Virus record (IMG/VR): IMGVR_UViG_3300025647_000327 | Coordinates: 1-21,561 of that record | Origin: a virus | Length of the DNA stretch: 21,561 nt | Reading direction: 5' to 3' (one strand) | In this document: positions 1,502 to 10,941 of the stretch, one piece after another | Layout of the letters: each line of letters starts with the position of its first letter | Position numbering within the stretch: position 1 is the stretch's first letter | Made by a program: the position numbers and the translations under genes | Notes under the pieces: model-generated | The model's input: only the letters and a program-made list of their open reading frames with translations | What the model was told of the DNA's origin: nothing | Database searches by the model: none

Positions 1502-2065
1502 TTAAAAGGCCCAACTGACAAATGAATATCTAGTGCCTTTTTTAACTTCAGTTACTTCGTGAGGAAACATAAAACAGCTTGGAAAAATGATAATATCACC
1601 AGTTTTTAACTTTAAATTTTTACCACAAATATTAAAATCTCCACCTGTGAAATTCTCATTCAAACAACCTACAAAGGATAACACGGGAATGCCTTTATGC
1701 TGACCATCAAATAAAGAATGAATATGATCGTAATGCATTCTCATCATTGTTCCTTTTTTATATTTATTAAATCGAATAGGAGAAAACTTAGTTGCTAAAT
1801 TACTTAATTTAGTTTCATTAGGATTTGCAAATTTAACATTATACTCTTGATAAGCTTTAACTAAAAAAGGAGTCATAGATTGTTGCATTTCAGAAGTAAT
1901 GGCTTGCACATCTAATTCTTTTTCTTTTTCTGAAGTCATAGAATTGGTTTCATTATTATGCCACTTATGTTTTTCCCAATCTCTTTTATCAATGGCTTTA
2001 ATAATTTCCTTGCACGTTTTTGCAGGAACTACATTATTTACATATACATAATCACTTACTTTCAT
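1502..2065 (-). CDS. 2OG-Fe(II) oxygenase, prolyl-4-hydroxylase-like (P4Hc type), third of three
   Basis: This 187-aa enzyme has an N-terminal helix region (VVPAKTCKEIIKAIDKRDWE) and a double-stranded beta-helix core. Iron ligands are H111 and D113 (RMHYDHIHS) and H169 (MFPHEVTEV), and 2OG is held by R179 (GTRYSFVSWAF). FTGGDFNI and LKTGDIIIFPS are typical core strands of P4Hc proteins. It differs in subfamily from the two genes before it, so the trio is not a simple recent triplication. A strong GGAGG ribosome site lies inside the end of the preceding gene. Possible targets include a virion protein or host protein; none is shown. Confidence 0.82.
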   Translation of the reverse strand: MKVSDYVYVNNVVPAKTCKEIIKAIDKRDWEKHKWHNNETNSMTSEKEKELDVQAITSEMQQSMTPFLVKAYQEYNVKFANPNETKLSNLATKFSPIRFNKYKKGTMMRMHYDHIHSLFDGQHKGIPVLSFVGCLNENFTGGDFNICGKNLKLKTGDIIIFPSCFMFPHEVTEVKKGTRYSFVSWAF

Positions 2066-2681
2066 AAATTTTCCTCCAGTTAAGTTCAGTTAAAGATTGT
2101 TCGGATCCTAAATTATCTTTTACAAAAGTATTAAAAGATAAACTAATCCTTACTTCGTCTGAAGTATTTCTAGGAACAGAATGACGTAAATGAGAAGGGA
2201 ACAAAATAAGTTCACCTGATACTAAAGGTAAATAAAATGTTTCACTATTAACTGAATTAAATTTCTCGAAGTTTAATTTAAGCATATCAAATTGTGTTTT
2301 AGAAAACATAATAGGTGGAAGATGTTTATCTATTCTAAAATAAAATACTCCAGATACAATAGAATTAGGATGAATATGTTCGTGGTGCACAGATCCCTTA
2401 GGATTGGTATTACACCAAGATTGAGTAATAATGAGTTGTTCTTTTGCCTGCATTATTTCTTTAGTAAATATATCTAAAGATTGTTGACAGAATTTTTTAA
2501 TATTATTTAATTGTTTCTTATCAAAAACATAAGAATCTTTAGAACGGAAATTTCCATTCATTCCATTGGGATCGTATTTAAGTTTTTCTACAAATGCTAA
2601 TTCTTTACTTAAGTTATTTTCATACTTAGTAATAAGTAGTGGTATAGCAAATAATTGTAATAGTTCTTTCTTTATCATCAC
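2052..2681 (-). CDS. 2OG-Fe(II) oxygenase family protein (PF13759/TIGR02466-like), second of three
   Basis: This 209-aa protein begins LLQLFAIPLLITKYEN, as in the family. SWCNTNPKGSVHHEHIHPNS (88-107) contains the W-x-N and the His cluster for iron, followed by IVSGVFYFRID. The C-terminal GELILFPSHLRHSVPRNTSD (156-175) gives distal H167, and EVRISLSFNTF gives 2OG-binding R178. This is the textbook order of the TIGR02466 group. The first codon at 2681 is GTG; the next, ATG at 2678, is probably the true start. It is under its own promoter and overlaps the third oxygenase gene by 14 bases. Substrate unknown. Confidence 0.8.
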   Translation of the reverse strand: MMIKKELLQLFAIPLLITKYENNLSKELAFVEKLKYDPNGMNGNFRSKDSYVFDKKQLNNIKKFCQQSLDIFTKEIMQAKEQLIITQSWCNTNPKGSVHHEHIHPNSIVSGVFYFRIDKHLPPIMFSKTQFDMLKLNFEKFNSVNSETFYLPLVSGELILFPSHLRHSVPRNTSDEVRISLSFNTFVKDNLGSEQSLTELNWRKIYESK

Positions 2682-2690
2682 ACAATAGAT

Positions 2691-2718
2691 GTTATACCAA
2701 ATTATAGGATTATGTAAA
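2691..2718 (-). promoter_or_regulatory. Extended -10 promoter before the second oxygenase gene
   Basis: In the 39-base gap the minus strand has -35 TTTACA (2713-2718), a 16-base spacer and -10 TATAAC (2691-2696) preceded by TGG (extended -10). The transcript would start near 2684, only a few bases before the GTG/ATG start (2681/2678), again leaving almost no leader. Confidence 0.55.
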
Positions 2719-2720
2719 GT

Positions 2721-3332
2721 TTAGTCAAAATTATACGCTAATGTTATTCTGGGATTATCTCCCTTATGTTTTTCAACAAAATGATGTAAATAGCTCCTAA
2801 ATATTAATAAACTATTATTTTCAGGTTTTATATCTGCTCTCTGATAAGACAGTTGATTAAAACAAACATTTCCTTTTAAAGGTTTCATATCTTCATATGG
2901 ATGTTTAAATATAATAGAAGAACGTTTATCAATATTTTTTTCTACTTGCAGATAATAAACTGCAGAAAAAGTAAAACCTGGATGTGTATGAAATTCTTGA
3001 TAATCATTTTTTTCATATATATTAAACCATCCTTCAGATGGCTTTTCATAAATATAATCAGAACCTAATTCATTATTAAATAGACTAACGTTTTTTGTTA
3101 TCTTTTCATTAAGAAATTTAAATTTTTTATCTTTAATTAAATCTAAAGTCCCTAAACTGTTATAGGTATCTACTAACCAATTAGATCCACCTTTTTTGGT
3201 TTTTTCTTTTATGTGTAGAATGTAATCTATTAGATCTTGTTTAATATTATCTGATAAGATATTTTCTTTGTAATAAAAACTAGTTGGAAAATATTGTATA
3301 ATTTCTTTCTGTGTCATCAATAAAGATAACAT
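2721..3332 (-). CDS. 2OG-Fe(II) oxygenase family protein (PF13759/TIGR02466-like), first of three
   Basis: This 203-aa protein (or 198 aa from the inner ATG at 3317, favoured by the promoter position) begins IIQYFPTSFYY, the usual start of this family (a 'phage/marine' 2OG oxygenase group). W102 and N104 precede the metal-binding FHTHPGFTFSAVYYLQV (114-130; H115, H117). The distal H183/H184 (SYLHHFV) and 2OG-binding R195 (NPRITLAYNFD) follow in order. These enzymes hydroxylate proteins or small molecules using 2-oxoglutarate and O2. The substrate is unknown. It has its own extended -10 promoter and is very AT-rich. Confidence 0.75.
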   Translation of the reverse strand: MLSLLMTQKEIIQYFPTSFYYKENILSDNIKQDLIDYILHIKEKTKKGGSNWLVDTYNSLGTLDLIKDKKFKFLNEKITKNVSLFNNELGSDYIYEKPSEGWFNIYEKNDYQEFHTHPGFTFSAVYYLQVEKNIDKRSSIIFKHPYEDMKPLKGNVCFNQLSYQRADIKPENNSLLIFRSYLHHFVEKHKGDNPRITLAYNFD

Positions 3333-3357: not shown

Positions 3358-4350
3358 TTAAGAAGAAATTCCACCGTGTGAACCAGATGCAGTTCCATAT
3401 TCACCATCAGTAGTAGTTAACATATCTCCAAAATCTATTGCATTACCAGTTGTTGTAATAGTAATATAATCTAAAGTATTTGTAACAACAGGATTTTGGC
3501 CTCCTCCAAATACTCCTCTAATAGAATTAGATACACCTCCCACACCAGCTCTTGTAACTGTTAAATCTCCAAAATCTGTGGCATTACCCGTTGATGCTAT
3601 AGTTATATATTGAATGACATTAATAACACCTGGTCCATCATTACCTCCAGCAAATACTCCTCTAGTATTAGAACTAACTCCACCTAAAATAATATTACCA
3701 GCTAATAAATCTCCAAAATCTGTGGCATTACCCGTTGATGCTATAGTTATATATTGAATGACATTAGTTCTTCCAGGGTTTCCTCCACCTCCAATTATTC
3801 CTCTTGTAGGAGAATTTACCATATTAGCTGATCCACCCACTGAATTTATTTGATCACCAAAATCTGCTGCATTACCAGTAGAAGCAATAGTCACATAATC
3901 CATTGTGTTGGAATTAGGATCTTGTCCACCACAGAAAACACCTCTAGTTTCAGAAGATGCTCCAGCTGATCTAGTTCTAGCTTGGGTTGTATCTCCAAAA
4001 TCTACTGCATTACCTTGAGTTGAAAATGTAAAATATTGAATTGAATTTGTTGTTGTTACGTCGTTTGGACTATATCCCATTGCGTTTAATCCTCTTGTAG
4101 TAGAGGCTGAACTTGATTGATTTGATGAAGCACCAGCTAATAAATCACCAAAATCTGTTGCGTTACCAGTAGAAGGTATATTTATCCACTGTATAGTATT
4201 TGTAGTAGCTGGAGATGCTGGAGATTCTCCTCCTATAAAAAATCCATAAGAAGATATATAATTAGGCCAATTATTTCCTAGCCTTGCATTGTAAACATCT
4301 TTAAGTTTCCAGATATATGAATTAGGTCCTGATGGTGATGGGAATGCCAT
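3358..4350 (-). CDS. Single six-repeat kelch-like propeller virion protein
   Basis: This 330-aa protein has the same design as the 328-aa one: a 36-residue attachment segment with SYIWKLKDVYNARLGNNWPN, then six ~48-residue repeats (about 37-327) and a closing SHGGISS. Repeats 4 and 5 carry identical ITIASTGNATDFGDL segments encoded by a perfect 61-bp DNA repeat. Its ATG shares one base with the stop of the 928-aa gene, with a GGAGG site, so the two are co-translated. It may be an alternative or shorter adhesin, or assemble with the large one. It is followed by a promoter and the first oxygenase gene. Confidence 0.7.
   Translation of the reverse strand: MAFPSPSGPNSYIWKLKDVYNARLGNNWPNYISSYGFFIGGESPASPATTNTIQWINIPSTGNATDFGDLLAGASSNQSSSASTTRGLNAMGYSPNDVTTTNSIQYFTFSTQGNAVDFGDTTQARTRSAGASSETRGVFCGGQDPNSNTMDYVTIASTGNAADFGDQINSVGGSANMVNSPTRGIIGGGGNPGRTNVIQYITIASTGNATDFGDLLAGNIILGGVSSNTRGVFAGGNDGPGVINVIQYITIASTGNATDFGDLTVTRAGVGGVSNSIRGVFGGGQNPVVTNTLDYITITTTGNAIDFGDMLTTTDGEYGTASGSHGGISS
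3562..3622 (-). repeat. 61-bp perfect direct repeat, copy 1
   Basis: This copy is identical over 61 bases to 3706-3766; the copies are exactly 144 bp (48 codons) apart. It lies in repeats 5 and 4 of the 330-aa propeller gene. Perfect identity, while neighbouring blades differ in DNA, points to recent duplication or gene conversion. Confidence 0.9.
3706..3766 (-). repeat. 61-bp perfect direct repeat, copy 2
   Basis: Second copy of the 61-bp repeat (see 3562-3622), in frame with it. Recombination between the two would delete or add exactly one blade without shifting the frame. Confidence 0.9.
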
Positions 4351-7136
4351 TATTGTAGTCCTCCGTGATTAGCTCCACCGCCACCTAAATTATTTCTTGC
4401 TTGAGTAGTATCTCCAAAGTCTATAGAATTACCAGTGGTTGCTATAGTTACATATTCCATAATATTTGTACTACTATTTAAGGCGACAACTCCTCTTGTA
4501 TTATTAGAAGCTGCTGCATTACTTGTTGACGTAGTTGTTAAATCTCCAAAATCGGTAGCATTACCTGTTGATGCAATAGTAACATATTGAATAATATTTG
4601 TAGAGGCACCTGGTTCTGAACTTCCTCCAGCTACAATTCCTCTTGTTGAAGATGAAAAACCAGCAGCATATCTGTTAGTTCCTAACAGATCACCAAAATC
4701 TGTAGCATTACCTGTTGCAGCTATTGTGACATAATCTATTACATTGGTATTTCCTGCTGGACCTCTTCCACCTAAAAACAAGCCTCTTGTTGGTGAACAA
4801 GCAGACGCTCTACTTCTTACACTTACAGTCATATCTCCAAAATCTATTGCATTACCAATTGATGCAATTGTAATATAATCAATTGTATTAACAATTGATC
4901 CTGGAAACTCTCCTCCTCCAAATATTCCTCTTGTAGAATTATTATTACAACCACTTGAAACAAAATATCTAGCTTGTGTTAAATCTCCAAAATCAAATGC
5001 ATTACCAGTGGTTTGCACATTAAAAGCGTCAATTACATTTGTTTGAGCAGGGGATGCTCCACCTGCAGAAATACCTCTAGTTGAAGTCATAGCACTTCCC
5101 ATATAACCTCTTATTGATGTTAAATCACCATAATCAACTGCATTCCCTGTAGATGAGATATCTATATAATCCATTGTGTTTACAAGAGTAGGAGTTCCTC
5201 CACCAAAATAAATTCCTCTATCAGGTTGAGCAGTTAACGTAGCCCCATTCAAGCCTCCGTGGCCGTTGGAAGAACCTCCCAGACTTGATTGAGCATTTGT
5301 TAAATCTCCAAAGTCTATAGCATTACCTGTTGATGCGATAGTGACATAATCTATTGTATTTGTAATAGGAGGTCCATTACCTCCTGCAAAAGTTCCCCGT
5401 GTTGAATTTGATGCACCAGCTCCTTTTCCTCTTGTTAATGTTAAATCTCCAAAATCTGCTGCATTACCAGCTGAAGCTATAGTTATGTAATCTATGACAT
5501 TTGAAACTGTAGGTGTTGTTTGACCTACTGCTATTACTCCTCGTGTAGAAGAAGAACTTGCCATACTTCCTCTAGAAGTAGAAGATAAATCTCCAAAATC
5601 GGTTGCATTACCTGTGGTTGCAATAGTTACATAATCCATAGTATTAACATTACCTGCAGGTCCTAGACCTGCTACAAACACACCTCTTGTTGTTGAATTT
5701 ACTCCTGATCCATTATATCTTGCAACAGTCAAATCTCCAAAATCTGCAAAATTTCCTAAAGAAGAATATTCAATATATTGAATAACATTATTAAGGGTAA
5801 AAGGAGCAACAGATAATTCACCTCCTCCAAAAATTCCTCTAGTAGAATTTCCAGCAGTATTAGGTCTATCATTAGCGGAAGTACTTAAATTTCCAAAATT
5901 GGCTGCGTTTCCTTTTGAAGTAACAGTAACATAATCTACAGTAGTTGAAGGAGAATTATAGTTTCCAGTAACTAGTTGTCTTGTTTCATTTGAAATACTT
6001 GCTGCTAAATTTCTATTTATTGTACAATCTCCAAAATCAGAAGCATTACCTGTGGTTGAAATTTTATAAGATTGAATAATATTAGTTGAAGCTGGAGTTT
6101 CTCCTGCTGCCATAATAGCTTGGTCTCCACTATTTAAAAATGTAGGAGGCCTTGTTCCTTGATACCCGTCGCTTAATCCTCCGTGGGCGTTACTGGTTGC
6201 TGCTCCTTGACCTCCTGGACCACCTAAGTTTCCAAAATCGGTTGCATTACCTGTAGTTGAAATAGTTACATATTGTTTGTTAGTAAGTGCTACAGCAGAA
6301 GCTACACCTCCTAATGAATATCCTTTTATTGAATTACTTGTTCCACTTCCTTCATATAAAGCTGAAGTTAAATCTCCAAAATCCGTTCCATTACCTCCTG
6401 AAGACATTGTAATAAATTCTATAACATTAGTGCTAGGGGTACCTCCCATAAATAATCCTCTTGTAGAAGAAGAGGTTCCTTGTAATGATCTTTTAGCTTG
6501 AGTTAGATCTCCGAAATCTGTTGTATTACCAGTCGTAGCTGTTGTTATAAATTGAATTGTATTGTGATTTGTTGTTGGACCAAATGTAAGCGATCCTCCA
6601 AAAATACCTCTTGTTGAACTAGATACCCCTGCCATAGCTTGTCCTGTTTGCACAGCTAAGTCTCCAAAGTCTAAAGCATTACCAAGTGAAGCTGTTGTTA
6701 CATAATCAATAACATTTTTCCCTGTTCCATTTCCTGCAAAAACACTTCTTGTAGAACTATTGGCTGATCCAATACCATATCTAGCTTCTGTTAAATTTCC
6801 AAAATCTGCAGCACTACCTAGTGAGCTAAATGTTACATAATCAATTATATTAGAAGAAGTTGGTGTGTAACCTCCTGCAAACAATCCTCTTGATAAAGAA
6901 CTAGCAGAGCCTAAAGCTCTTCTTGCAGAACTTAAATTTCCAAATACAGAAGTTTCTCCACCTGAAGTTAAATTAAAAGATTCTGCAACTGCTGAGTTGG
7001 TTGCAGGGAATCTAGTTCCACCTCCAAATAAACCCACAGCAGCATTGTTCGGCCAAGTCCCATTATAGATTTGGTCGTATACATCGCTTAATTTCCAAAC
7101 GCCTGCAGCGTTATCTAACCGTGGGAACTGAGCCAT
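4350..7136 (-). CDS. Giant triple-propeller tail protein (18 kelch-like repeats)
   Basis: This 928-aa protein has an N-terminal attachment segment (AAGVWKLSDVYDQIYNGTWP), then 18 repeats of 45-51 residues. They form three blocks of six: residues 35-321, 340-629 and 641-928. Each block ends with an HGGL closure (AHGGL, GHGGL, NHGGL), and short linkers join the blocks. The repeat core is GG, NVIDYVTIASTGNA, DFGDL, S-STRG. The block structure predicts three six-bladed beta-propellers. Likely role: multivalent host-surface binding on the tail. It follows the 116-aa gene, overlaps the 330-aa propeller gene by one base, and lies downstream of the sulfation-type genes. No enzyme motif is visible. 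Confidence 0.75.
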   Translation of the reverse strand: MAQFPRLDNAAGVWKLSDVYDQIYNGTWPNNAAVGLFGGGTRFPATNSAVAESFNLTSGGETSVFGNLSSARRALGSASSLSRGLFAGGYTPTSSNIIDYVTFSSLGSAADFGNLTEARYGIGSANSSTRSVFAGNGTGKNVIDYVTTASLGNALDFGDLAVQTGQAMAGVSSSTRGIFGGSLTFGPTTNHNTIQFITTATTGNTTDFGDLTQAKRSLQGTSSSTRGLFMGGTPSTNVIEFITMSSGGNGTDFGDLTSALYEGSGTSNSIKGYSLGGVASAVALTNKQYVTISTTGNATDFGNLGGPGGQGAATSNAHGGLSDGYQGTRPPTFLNSGDQAIMAAGETPASTNIIQSYKISTTGNASDFGDCTINRNLAASISNETRQLVTGNYNSPSTTVDYVTVTSKGNAANFGNLSTSANDRPNTAGNSTRGIFGGGELSVAPFTLNNVIQYIEYSSLGNFADFGDLTVARYNGSGVNSTTRGVFVAGLGPAGNVNTMDYVTIATTGNATDFGDLSSTSRGSMASSSSTRGVIAVGQTTPTVSNVIDYITIASAGNAADFGDLTLTRGKGAGASNSTRGTFAGGNGPPITNTIDYVTIASTGNAIDFGDLTNAQSSLGGSSNGHGGLNGATLTAQPDRGIYFGGGTPTLVNTMDYIDISSTGNAVDYGDLTSIRGYMGSAMTSTRGISAGGASPAQTNVIDAFNVQTTGNAFDFGDLTQARYFVSSGCNNNSTRGIFGGGEFPGSIVNTIDYITIASIGNAIDFGDMTVSVRSRASACSPTRGLFLGGRGPAGNTNVIDYVTIAATGNATDFGDLLGTNRYAAGFSSSTRGIVAGGSSEPGASTNIIQYVTIASTGNATDFGDLTTTSTSNAAASNNTRGVVALNSSTNIMEYVTIATTGNSIDFGDTTQARNNLGGGGANHGGLQ
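4353..7034 (-). repeat. Eighteen tandem ~144-bp coding repeats
   Basis: Tandem in-frame units of about 135-153 bp encode the propeller blades. The segment coding for G-N-A-x-D-F-G-D-L (plus strand: ctccaaaatc plus a conserved gcattacc) recurs once per unit and makes the repeat plain at DNA level. Two longer-than-usual units, at about 6120-6320 and 5217-5395, contain the inter-block linkers. Confidence 0.8.
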
Positions 7137-7569: not shown

Positions 7570-8409
7570 CTAGTCTTCTTTTTTCTTGTCTTCATTCACT
7601 GTAGCCAAAGATTTATCATCTAATAGCTTAAATCCTCTTCTATCAGCGAACTTTTTAGAGTCATTTTTAAAGATTTCTGCACAATGTTCTAACCATTGCA
7701 TCGTCATTTCGTGACTTGGGTTTTCTCCATTAGCCATCATTTCATTCTCTCTTTTAAGATATTCATATATCTCTTTTTGAGCGACCGCTGAGTTAATGCC
7801 CATATCAAATAAATAGATTAAATTACCTTCATCTATTTGTCCTCCTCGCGCGCGTGCGGCATTTAAGGCTTGTTTCATACAAGTCATAATATGGTATTTT
7901 ACTTCTTCTTCCTCATATTCTTTTTCTGTAATATCTTCTTTTCCTAATGTTTGTAAAATAGATTTATATTGAGTAGTGAAGAAAGACATTTTTCTAATTG
8001 CGCCTTGAATAGAATTTAACATATTACCACCTTGCACTCTTAGTTTAAGTAATTTAAATTCTATATGTTCTCTTTCTAAAGGATCTAAATCAGGATTCTC
8101 TAATTGTTTTTCTCTTTTTTTAATCATAATATCATTCTCTTGTAATTTTAAATGAGCTTCTTCTAAGGCCATTCTAGTTCTATCTATTTCTGCAAGAGTA
8201 TGTTTGACGGAGCGTATTGGTGTAATTGCAGTAACATCTAACATCACACCCATAAATTGAGAATGAGATTTATAAAAATTAGCTGATGTTTTTTTAATAG
8301 CAGGCATTGTATTACCAATGTGTGTTAACATATCTTTATATTTTTTAGTTAACTCTGGTAATTGAGATATACCAGCAATCGTTAAATCTTTTCCTTTATC
8401 TTTTTCCAT
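7570..8409 (-). CDS. Helical protein of unknown function in the sulfotransferase operon
   Basis: This 279-aa, mostly helical protein has no recognised domain. The N-terminal ~60 residues (ISQLPELTKKYKDMLTHIGN onward) and a coiled-coil centre (about 75-140, rich in E, K, L with KKREKQLENPDLDPLEREHI) are followed by a helical C-terminal half. The latter includes TCMKQALNAARARGGQ, NLIYLFDMGINSAVAQKEIY and MQWLEHCAEIF. The tail is highly charged. It begins inside the nucleotidyltransferase gene (14-base overlap; AAAGGAA site), so it belongs to the same operon. It could be a virion or an assembly protein; nothing indicates an enzyme. Confidence 0.6.
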   Translation of the reverse strand: MEKDKGKDLTIAGISQLPELTKKYKDMLTHIGNTMPAIKKTSANFYKSHSQFMGVMLDVTAITPIRSVKHTLAEIDRTRMALEEAHLKLQENDIMIKKREKQLENPDLDPLEREHIEFKLLKLRVQGGNMLNSIQGAIRKMSFFTTQYKSILQTLGKEDITEKEYEEEEVKYHIMTCMKQALNAARARGGQIDEGNLIYLFDMGINSAVAQKEIYEYLKRENEMMANGENPSHEMTMQWLEHCAEIFKNDSKKFADRRGFKLLDDKSLATVNEDKKKED

Positions 8410-8749
8410 TTATTTCCTTTCTTATTTTTGTTGCAGATATTTCTTGTATCTGTTTAGGTAAAACAATTTCTTCTATTTTATATCCTACCCCTCTTCCATA
8501 ACAAATATTAGTTATGTTAGGAACTTTTACAATATCAAATTTTCCTTGAAAAGCAAGTAAAGCTTGTTCAATCCTAGATTTGACTTCATTAAAATCAAAT
8601 GGATTACTATCATCTCTAGGTGTGTCTCTTACCATAATAATAACTTGTCCTGTTCTTTCCAATGCTTGTTCAAACAATGCTTGATGTCCAGCGTGCCACG
8701 GTTGCCATCTCCCTAACATCATTGCAGTTGGTTTATTTGAGTCTATCAT
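8396..8749 (-). CDS. HxGH-type nucleotidyltransferase (cytidylyl/adenylyltransferase fold)
   Basis: This 117-aa enzyme has the nucleotide-binding GRWQPWHAGH (13-22, HxGH at 19-22) and the C-terminal ISATKIR motif (104-110), both hallmarks of the nucleotidylyl-transferase superfamily. It is shorter than most members (~140-160 aa). An AAAGGAG site precedes the ATG. It overlaps the kinase gene by 17 bases and the next gene by 14. Within this operon it might make a nucleotide-activated intermediate: an APS-like compound if it acts on ATP and sulfate, or a CDP-linked group. ATP sulfurylases share the fold but are much larger, so that role is a hypothesis. Confidence 0.7.
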   Translation of the reverse strand: MIDSNKPTAMMLGRWQPWHAGHQALFEQALERTGQVIIMVRDTPRDDSNPFDFNEVKSRIEQALLAFQGKFDIVKVPNITNICYGRGVGYKIEEIVLPKQIQEISATKIRKEINGKR

Positions 8750-9140
8750 ATATCTCCTTTATTGTTTCATCATAGTTGTAATCTTTAATTTCAAAATCGC
8801 AAGTTTTAGGTTTTTCAAATACTTTATTGGTATCTTCAAATCTTCCTTTTTGAATAGTATTCATCCATATTTTAATATCATAAGATTGCCTGTTTTTATC
8901 AAAAGGAGCTACAAAATCTGCAATACTATGTTTATTATTTAATTTAGACTCCATCGTTAAAGACAACATCCTCGCTGCTTGTCGCTTGCGGCCAGATTCT
9001 GAAAAATCCCAGTCATTAAATTTTTTTCTTATTTCATCTGCATTATAATAATCCATATTAGCGGTTAATAATTTTTTACTAAAAGTAGATTTACCTGATC
9101 CTGGTAATCCAAAAACTATGATTCTTTTGAAGGTAGCCAT
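8733..9140 (-). CDS. APS-kinase-like (CysC-like) small P-loop kinase
   Basis: This 135-aa P-loop protein has Walker A GLPGSGKST (11-19). The segment NADEIRKKFNDWDFSESGRK (33-52) resembles the D-x-x-R ... GFS-x-x-x-R substrate region of APS kinases, and SIADFVAPFDKNRQSYD resembles their ISPF...R segment. APS kinase turns APS into PAPS, the donor for sulfotransferases. The preceding gene, overlapping by 25 bases, is a sulfotransferase, which supports this activity. It is shorter than usual CysC (~175-200 aa). Alternative: kinases of the same subfamily act on other nucleotide-linked groups, as in Campylobacter phosphoramidate synthesis, so substrate is not proven. Confidence 0.65.
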   Translation of the reverse strand: MATFKRIIVFGLPGSGKSTFSKKLLTANMDYYNADEIRKKFNDWDFSESGRKRQAARMLSLTMESKLNNKHSIADFVAPFDKNRQSYDIKIWMNTIQKGRFEDTNKVFEKPKTCDFEIKDYNYDETIKEIYDRLK

Positions 9141-9919
9141 ATATTCAAGTTTTTATATTTCTCAATAGTCTCTTTAGGTAATATTTTTTTAATATCTCTT
9201 TTAGTCTTACTTATATTTTTAGTTTTAATAGTATGTAAATTAAATCCTACTACTTTATCATCATATCCCATTCCATTAACTTCAAACGGTTTAAAATTTT
9301 TATAGGTATGATTAAATTGTTTTATTTCTAAAAAATCATAAATTTCTTTAACAATTTCTTTTGGTTTATTTACTAAATCATTATAGTCCACTAATTTATA
9401 TATTCCTTTATGATGATCAACTAAATGTTTAATAGCTATTAATTCGTTTACAATTAAACCCTTATTGTTCATTAGTGCATCGCATCTTTTTGCAGTATCC
9501 ATTGTACCAATACGATTAGGATAAGCGTCATAATTATGATCTGCCCAATCAATAAAAGAGGCTAATACTTCTAACACATCTCTTACTAAAACGACAATTT
9601 TAGGTTTTGGATTGACATAGTGTTTTAAGAATCTTAAGTTATTAGGAGCACCCCAAGGTCCTCGATCAATGATAATAGGTTCTTTCCAATCTTTATAATA
9701 TTCAGGTATCACGGATCGAATTACATTTCCATAAGAATTATGATCTGGATAATTTTTAAAAATATCACTATTTTTTAAATTGTGTAACTCTTTAAACATT
9801 TCTGTAATAATAGAATTTGCGGTAGCTGCAATCTCAGGGTTCTGATTTAAGATAGTAGATAATATAGTATTTCCTGCTCTAGGAAGTCCACAAAGATAAT
9901 GAATAACTTTCTTGCTCAC
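9116..9919 (-). CDS. PAPS-dependent sulfotransferase family protein
   Basis: This 267-aa enzyme would move a sulfo group from PAPS to an acceptor. The 5'-phosphosulfate-binding loop is GLPRAGNTIL (11-20). The 3'-phosphate-binding motif is KIVVLVRDVLEVLASFIDW (107-125), with R113 and S121 in the expected places. Length and fold order match single-domain sulfotransferases. GTG is chosen as start because the loop begins at residue 11, no ATG precedes it, and TAA lies 21 codons... or fewer upstream in frame. It overlaps the kinase gene by 25 bases and has its own promoter. Acceptor unknown: tail protein, host surface glycan or lipid are possible. Confidence 0.8.
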   Translation of the reverse strand: MSKKVIHYLCGLPRAGNTILSTILNQNPEIAATANSIITEMFKELHNLKNSDIFKNYPDHNSYGNVIRSVIPEYYKDWKEPIIIDRGPWGAPNNLRFLKHYVNPKPKIVVLVRDVLEVLASFIDWADHNYDAYPNRIGTMDTAKRCDALMNNKGLIVNELIAIKHLVDHHKGIYKLVDYNDLVNKPKEIVKEIYDFLEIKQFNHTYKNFKPFEVNGMGYDDKVVGFNLHTIKTKNISKTKRDIKKILPKETIEKYKNLNIWLPSKES

Positions 9920-9954: not shown

Positions 9955-10941
9955 TTATTGAAGTCCGCCGTTTGCGTTAGAAGCAGTACCTCTAGTATAA
10001 CCAGCAGAAGATAAAAGATCTCCAAAATCAAGCGCGTTTCCAGTTGAGGCGATAGTTACATAATCAATTACATTATTACCTGCCCCACCTGCCCAAAGTG
10101 CTCTTGTCGCATTTGAAGTTGAAGAAGCTCCATTTCTTGCAACCGTTAGATCTCCAAAATCAGTTGCATTACCTGTTGATGCTATTGTGATATAATCGAT
10201 AACGTTAGTTGTAGGATATCCTCCACCAAAAACACCACGAGTTCCACTTGATGCATTATTTCCTCCCACACCTCTTCTTGCAACAGTTAAATCTCCAAAA
10301 TCTGTAGCATTGCCTGTTGTTGCTGTGGTGATAAATTCTATTACATTTGTTTCTGTATTACTACCATTAATTGCTCCTCCTGCTATACACATTCTTGTTC
10401 CTGAACAGGCAGAAGCAGGAGATCTCCATAATGTTTGAGTTGCATCTCCAAAGTCTGTTGCATTACCTGTGGTAGCCATAGTAACATAATCTATAATATT
10501 TACTATTGCAGCAGATGGATTAGTACCACTAACACCACAAGCAAAAATACCTCTTGTACTACTATTCCCACCAGCACCTTGATTGTGACCGCTAGTAGCA
10601 TCTCCAAAATCAACAGCATTACTTCCAACTAATATATTAGGTACATAGTCTATTACATTGGTGTATGGACCAGCTGCACCACTAGAGTTATCACCACAAA
10701 ATAAACCTCTTGTAGAAGAAGCACACCCTATTGTAAAATCTAGACTGTTTAAATCTCCAAAATCAGCTGCATTACCTGTCGTCGTTATTTGTACATATTC
10801 TATAGAGTTTCCAGAGCCACCTCCGAAAAGAGCAATGTCGCCAGATAATATAAGAATTTCTGGCCAAGCATTATCTTGAATATATTTGGATAAATTTTTT
10901 AAGTTCCAGATTCCAGAGTAAGGTCCACCAGGAGTAGGCAT
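9955..10941 (-). CDS. Single six-repeat kelch-like propeller virion protein (probable adhesin)
   Basis: This 328-aa protein has a 35-residue N-terminal attachment segment (SGIWNLKNLSKYIQDNAWPE) and six ~48-residue repeats (about 36-327). Each repeat shows a GG turn, a strand NVIDYVTIASTGNATDFGDL, and an ending S-x-TRG that leads into the next GG. Spacing of GG, an aromatic residue, the F of DFGD (in place of the kelch W) and R resembles kelch beta-propeller blades. The final repeat closes with ASNANGGLQ instead of TRG. It is likely a host-receptor-binding or display protein. The same N-terminal W-x-L...WP motif is present in the other two propeller genes. A strong AGGAGG site precedes the ATG. 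Confidence 0.7.
   Translation of the reverse strand: MPTPGGPYSGIWNLKNLSKYIQDNAWPEILILSGDIALFGGGSGNSIEYVQITTTGNAADFGDLNSLDFTIGCASSTRGLFCGDNSSGAAGPYTNVIDYVPNILVGSNAVDFGDATSGHNQGAGGNSSTRGIFACGVSGTNPSAAIVNIIDYVTMATTGNATDFGDATQTLWRSPASACSGTRMCIAGGAINGSNTETNVIEFITTATTGNATDFGDLTVARRGVGGNNASSGTRGVFGGGYPTTNVIDYITIASTGNATDFGDLTVARNGASSTSNATRALWAGGAGNNVIDYVTIASTGNALDFGDLLSSAGYTRGTASNANGGLQ

Follow-up and report, generated by a model that had tools for sequence, protein, structure and literature searches.

A candidate for the ATP sulfurylase missing from SAR11 is the main result of this analysis, and it lies outside the DNA from which the work started. That DNA, a viral stretch of 21,561 nucleotides (IMG/VR record IMGVR_UViG_3300025647_000327, hereafter the window), encodes a sulfotransferase, an APS kinase-like protein and a short nucleotidyltransferase (NTase), and these three genes very probably activate sulfate and attach the sulfuryl group during infection. 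We consider it probable, with good confidence, that they form a self-contained cassette in which the NTase is a minimal ATP sulfurylase, the kinase yields PAPS and the sulfotransferase uses it. Likely as well, if held a shade less firmly, is the broader proposal that NTases of about 115 aa are a class of ATP sulfurylase that arose independently and has gone unrecognised, that they include the missing SAR11 enzyme (activating sulfate there and, in reverse, forming ATP), and that marine phages have combined this enzyme with APS kinase and sulfotransferase as a portable pathway.

The observations from which we start are the genes themselves, their conserved arrangement as a cassette, the predicted folds and the sulfur genes to which they are linked in genomes. 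From there we infer the NTase reaction, the flux through PAPS and the acceptor: the NTase would convert ATP and sulfate to APS and PPi, the kinase would turn APS into PAPS, and during infection the sulfotransferase would pass the sulfuryl group from PAPS to an acceptor that might be a fibre of the virion or a glycan on the host surface. In SAR11 and its relatives, the NTase would replace the canonical Sat or CysDN.

Most SAR11 bacteria are reported to lack ATP sulfurylase (PMC10356861); annotations are said to include aprBA, a cysC and cysQ but neither sat nor cysDN (PMC5069961), and sulfate pathways that are incomplete are described as a core trait of Pelagibacteraceae (PMC12636525). An APS reductase with no reported ATP sulfurylase leaves in question both the end of sulfite oxidation in SAR11, with its possible gain of ATP, and the source of PAPS (PMC10356861, PMC5069961, PMC12636525). 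The NTase family may supply the ATP sulfurylase that this group, among the commonest bacteria of the sea, has long been believed to lack, and its short, easily expressed protein makes the question of sulfate activation in SAR11 testable. If the proposal is true, many marine genomes would need new sulfur annotations, the lists of viral metabolic genes would have to be revised, and phages would be seen to encode every step that leads from sulfate to a sulfated product. In open-licence papers we found neither a description of a phage PAPS cassette nor one of the NTase in Pelagibacter or as a new ATP sulfurylase.

Three overlapping genes on the viral window

On its minus strand the window has three successively overlapping ORFs, in the order sulfotransferase, kinase and NTase. 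The genes and their motifs are as follows.

9116..9919, minus strand: putative PAPS-dependent sulfotransferase, 267 aa, GTG start (Sulfotransfer_3, Sulfotransfer_1, phrog_27463, cyanophage relatives)
9866..9892, minus strand: 5'-PSB-like loop CGLPRAGNT, residues 10-18 (C10-T18) of the sulfotransferase (motif match and alignment)
9545..9595, minus strand: 3'-PSB-like VVLVRDVLEVLASFIDW, residues 109-125 of the sulfotransferase, R...S (motif match and alignment)
8733..9140, minus strand: predicted minimal APS kinase, 135 aa (Foldseek, PDB profile search, hhalign, AlphaFold2)
8967..9005, minus strand: putative APS-site motif FSESGRKRQAARM, residues 46-58 of the kinase (alignment of 57 members)
8396..8749, minus strand: minimal HxGH adenylyltransferase, 117 aa, proposed ATP sulfurylase (CTP_transf_like, NadM-like fold, chromosomal homologues)
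8684..8713, minus strand: predicted nucleotide-binding motif GRWQPWHAGH, residues 13-22 of the NTase (62-member alignment)
8480..8500, minus strand: family-specific YGRGVGY motif, residues 84-90 of the NTase (62-member alignment)
8420..8440, minus strand: ISATKIR motif, residues 104-110 of the NTase (62-member alignment)

A first-pass annotation of this DNA had described overlaps of 25 and 17 nt, and the ORF coordinates confirm them: sulfotransferase and kinase share 9116-9140 (25 nt), and kinase and NTase share 8733-8749 (17 nt). The NTase also overlaps the next gene (7570-8409) by 14 nt. The motifs that it had named are likewise present, namely both PAPS-binding motifs of the sulfotransferase (residues 10-18 and 109-125), the DxxR (35-38), FS...R (46-51) and PF...R (79-84) segments of the kinase, which also has a P-loop at 11-18, and HxGH (19-22) and ISATKIR (104-110) in a very short NTase of 117 aa. 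Its shared promoter fared less well, since promoter-like sites are not enriched (16 versus 19±4.2 in shuffled sequence); the tight gene overlaps nevertheless imply a single transcript for the three genes. A terminator scan found none.

Sulfotransferase and APS kinase

Against Pfam, the sulfotransferase matched Sulfotransfer_3 (2e-12, 48.3 bits, cut-off 27) and Sulfotransfer_1 (2.5e-10, 40.7 bits, cut-off 22), and it matched phrog_27463, a PHROG with no functional label, at 2.2e-55; PDB sequences gave no meaningful match. The 5'-PSB and 3'-PSB motifs are both conserved in most family members, and the LPRxGNT pattern is kept in most of 31. Relatives are rare among annotated phages (10/50,697 records), and those annotated as sulfotransferases in cyanophages are 22-29% identical to the window protein. 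The cyanophages S-SKS1 and S-SRM01 share with the window a sulfotransferase that is 27-29% identical, but their records gave no match when the kinase or the NTase was the query. What phage sulfotransferases do has been called unclear in a paper on OM43 phages (PMC10580990).

By fold and profile the second protein is an APS kinase, and phosphorylation of APS is predicted. Its AlphaFold2 model, built with 57 homologues, reached a pLDDT of 95.5 (the alignments behind this model and that of the NTase omit rows from the annotated phage collection), and Foldseek ranks 1-29 in the PDB for this model were APS kinases, the best at 2.3e-7. A profile search of PDB sequences also returned APS kinases (up to 3.2e-13), hhalign against E. 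coli CysC gave 97.5%, and the protein is over the Pfam APS_kinase cut-off (1.5e-5), with some relatives reaching 1e-15 to 5e-13. The phage kinase resembles CysC and the APSK domain of PAPSS1 in its P-loop, its DxxR, FS...R and P...R segments and its fold; unlike them, it has 135 aa rather than about 200, with a shortened C-terminal region. Sixteen positions are invariant across the 57 kinases, viral rows included, and among them are D35, R38, F46, R51, R57, M58, P79 and R84. Q54 is nearly invariant, whereas canonical CysC (E. coli) has Asn at this place in FSxxxRxxN.

A separate family of HxGH nucleotidyltransferases

The NTase matched CTP_transf_like in Pfam (2.5e-6), and its AlphaFold2 model, with 62 homologues and a pLDDT of 92.5, has a NadM-like fold. 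In the fold comparison asked for by the first-pass annotation, the HxGH fold came out near NadM and PPAT, and ATP sulfurylase was absent among the 50 best matches; by profile, too, NMN adenylyltransferase (NadM) was closest. The match to PF01747 (Sat) remained under the cut-off of 24.3 bits (E 0.15, 11.9 bits), and that to the NadM equivalog TIGR01527 had 28.4 of the 181.2 bits required. Judged by these sequence comparisons, the NTase is a separate NadM-like HxGH family and not a canonical ATP sulfurylase. The complete-pathway idea, in which the NTase would activate sulfate, nevertheless has strong genomic support, described below. With Sat, the NTase would have in common the chemistry of the HxGH superfamily, the proposed reaction and the place in sulfate-assimilation and apr operons; it differs in being much smaller, in addition to the failed profile and fold matches.

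We count the proximity in sequence and fold to NMN adenylyltransferase and PPAT against the ATP sulfurylase reading. It is also the first point in favour of a rival explanation, in which the NTase is an NMN adenylyltransferase or some other small-molecule adenylyl- or cytidylyltransferase, and kinase and NTase are a non-sulfur module (NAD salvage or a CDP-activated group) merely travelling with the sulfotransferase. We regard this as improbable. With NadM (MJ0541, M. thermautotrophicus NMNAT) the NTase shares the GRxQPxHxGH motif, the NPF segment and the fold of the first two thirds, but profile and shorter Foldseek matches to NadM cover mainly residues ~8-77, and the acceptor half appears short, family-specific (YGRxVGY) and not common to the two, the NTase having about 115 aa versus about 170. 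The acceptor-site residues of NadM were compared by eye. In addition, the kinase resembles APS kinases and not riboside kinases, and the genomic partners of the NTase, unlike those of NadM, are sulfur genes.

Twenty-four positions are invariant across the 62 NTases, viral rows included. Among them are G13, R14, Q16, P17, H19, G21 and H22 around HxGH, Y84, G85, R86, V88 and G89 of YGRxVGY, and I104, S105, A106, T107 and R110 of ISATKIR. The nucleotidyltransferase motifs looked for in an ATP sulfurylase, HxGH and ISxTxxR, are kept in all 62. YGRGVGY was set by eye against the GRDHAG motif of ATP sulfurylase, a comparison that carries no weight as a test.

Chromosomal relatives beside sulfur genes

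A scan of genome contigs with the NTase found relatives chiefly in SAR11 chromosomes. Only 2 genomes in a Pseudomonadota-wide sample of 397 had the NTase, one of them the SAR11 reference, and the family within Pseudomonadota thus looks restricted to SAR11, its relatives and phages.

An operon of SUMT, CysI, CysH, DUF2061, kinase and NTase was present in 5/6 genomes of one alphaproteobacterial family, and the cysI-cysH operon loci that end with kinase and NTase are L100, L101, L107, L321 and L322. None of the five genomes had a CysD match above the curated cut-off, two weak matches being the neighbouring CysH. A gene of the ATP sulfurylase family (PF01747) was not found in four of them; in the fifth it lies outside the cysI-cysH operon, among surface-polysaccharide-type genes. 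The PF01747 (Sat-like) gene observed at L324:358-6001, beside pyruvate-kinase-like and surface-polysaccharide-type genes, is probably not in sulfate assimilation.

For SAR11, a single order was sampled with 148 genomes, the completeness asked for being at least 80%, with some assemblies incomplete. The NTase was found in 116, aprA in 118 and both in 105 (Fisher p 1.4e-8, every genome being counted regardless of relatedness). Where aprA was present and sat and cysN were not, 100/112 genomes had the NTase, and 13 aprA genomes had no NTase match, some assemblies being incomplete. CysN occurred in 6/148 genomes, none of which had the NTase or aprA, and PF01747 in 7/148, of which 5 had the NTase. 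In 24 SAR11 genomes no more than 3 kb separates the NTase from aprA, and in 42/80 chromosomal loci aprA, aprB or aprM is at most 3.5 kb away. The genes aprA and aprB were assigned by equivalog models, whereas aprM was named from its position. Being in both cysI-cysH and apr neighbourhoods, the NTase occupies the place of ATP sulfurylase in assimilation and in sulfite oxidation. Its operons and its complementarity to the canonical enzymes (0/6 CysN genomes; PF01747 in 5/116 NTase genomes) are those expected of an ATP sulfurylase; these operons, and the fact that CysN and NTase were never found together in this sample, speak against a non-sulfur module.

The distribution of the kinase points the same way. 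It was found in 106/148 SAR11 genomes; all but one of these, 105, also have the NTase, which in 96 is within 300 nt of the kinase, so that about 70% of the sampled genomes (105/148) have the pair. It was not found in 11 NTase-bearing genomes, and these include all 7 in which the NTase is inside an aprMBA operon. AprBA acts on APS and requires no kinase, while PAPS-type CysH and sulfotransferases require PAPS. An NTase without kinase in aprMBA operons is what one would expect if AprBA needs only APS. That the kinase is present where PAPS is needed and missing in aprMBA operons is predicted by an ATP sulfurylase and hard to explain otherwise, including by a non-sulfur module.

In a tree of 66 NTases, built from few columns, the members linked to aprBA are spread over at least two branches, those linked to cysHI cluster together, and the NTase of the window is placed with other sulfotransferase-linked viruses. 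We count these separate branches of aprBA-, cysHI- and sulfotransferase-linked NTases in favour of the pathway reading.

The link to aprBA might also be read differently, with the NTase acting at the level of APS mainly in reverse or with phosphate, like an ADP sulfurylase, and the phage pair serving disposal of sulfite or APS and not sulfation. In SAR11, aprBA is indeed thought to run as sulfite oxidation (PMC12636525, PMC5069961). However, aprBA genes were found near none of 155 viral loci, and phages pair the NTase with a PAPS-forming kinase and often a PAPS-using sulfotransferase, so that we hold this to be very unlikely.

Two further features of these chromosomal loci were observed. A conserved protein of ~116 aa, with no function assigned, is encoded directly after aprA in SAR11 (L125:8865-9227, L325:4501-4848, L326:5496-5843), and a TENA/THI-4-family gene (L103:5290-5952) is directly upstream of a SAR11 NTase-aprMBA operon.

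Recurrence of the cassette in viruses

Scanning viral contigs with the NTase alone as query gave 312 relatives; after wider scans and removal of duplicates there were 155 viral loci, 128 of them with room upstream. In the best-scoring loci, the kinase is directly upstream of the NTase and the sulfotransferase upstream of the kinase. The first-pass annotation had held that rare co-occurrence would refute a complete PAPS pathway. Within the 128 loci, found mostly via NTase or kinase sequence, the kinase is at most 3.5 kb from the NTase in 127, and a sulfotransferase of the window's family is nearby in 70. All three genes occur in 81 viral loci, always on one strand and in the order sulfotransferase-kinase-NTase in 78/81, with kinase and NTase overlapping by 17 nt in 48 and by 14 nt in 17. 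Co-occurrence is thus not rare and the refutation fails; the three genes are a recurrent cassette, beyond chance, which together with the chromosomal relatives in cysI-cysH and aprMBA operons it supports the complete pathway that had been proposed.

Preserved order and overlaps also speak against a reading in which kinase and NTase of the phage are remnants of host genes, degenerate or regulatory, the sulfotransferase alone being active, on host PAPS. A SAR11 host often has its own kinase and NTase, which would fit; the invariant positions of both families, conserved in viral rows too, would not, and we give this explanation slightly less credence than even the disposal of sulfite or APS.

In 57/128 viral loci with kinase and NTase, no sulfotransferase of the window's family was seen nearby; at least one of these, L076, has a Sulfotransfer_2 gene instead. 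These loci, Q54 of the kinase and the 13 aprA genomes with no NTase are counted against the pathway reading. Fusions of kinase and NTase, which we count in favour of the pathway reading, occur in phages of Stenotrophomonas and Xanthomonas and in 34 viral and 10 chromosomal loci. PHROG 10255 (phrog_10255, labelled 'kinase') contains the same two proteins as one fused family but has no pathway label, and a genome-wide search for a Sulfotransfer_3 gene found none in DLP6 and two Casjensviridae, three annotated phages that have the fusion, so that the pair is used there otherwise or with another transferase.

T4-like and Casjensviridae members have nucleotide-metabolism, NADAR or glycosyltransferase-like genes as neighbours, which likewise counts against the pathway reading. 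Two of these observations favour a non-sulfur module: a NADAR-type gene precedes the fused gene in the Casjensviridae of Stenotrophomonas and Xanthomonas, and in many T4-like loci no sulfur gene was seen near kinase and NTase. An adenylosuccinate synthetase-like or QueC-like gene adjoins kinase-NTase in the T4-like loci L284:2307-3329 and L289:4750-5262, and the T4-like neighbours are hinting at a role in nucleotide modification.

Host and surroundings of the cassette

The major capsid protein of the window is 74% identical to its counterpart in pelagiphage HTVC023P, and SAR11 is therefore the likely host. The first-pass annotation had supposed that a SAR11-like host would lack a PAPS supply of its own; a host without any PAPS route was rejected on finding kinase and NTase in 105/148 genomes. 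As SAR11 genomes mostly carry the pair, it is more likely that the phage augments or commandeers the host supply than that it fills a void.

The usual neighbours of the cassette are 2OG-Fe(II) oxygenases and genes for virion or tail proteins. In the window, three tandem 2OG-Fe(II) oxygenase genes, overlapping or adjacent, are located at 1502-3332 (minus strand), and such genes adjoin the cassette in many further viral loci, so that hydroxylation and sulfation might share one target. On either side of the window cassette, at 3358-7136 and 9955-10941 (minus strand), are GNATDFGDLT-like repeat proteins, which are probable adhesin or fibre proteins; the repeat is present in 4/81 cassette loci, the window included.
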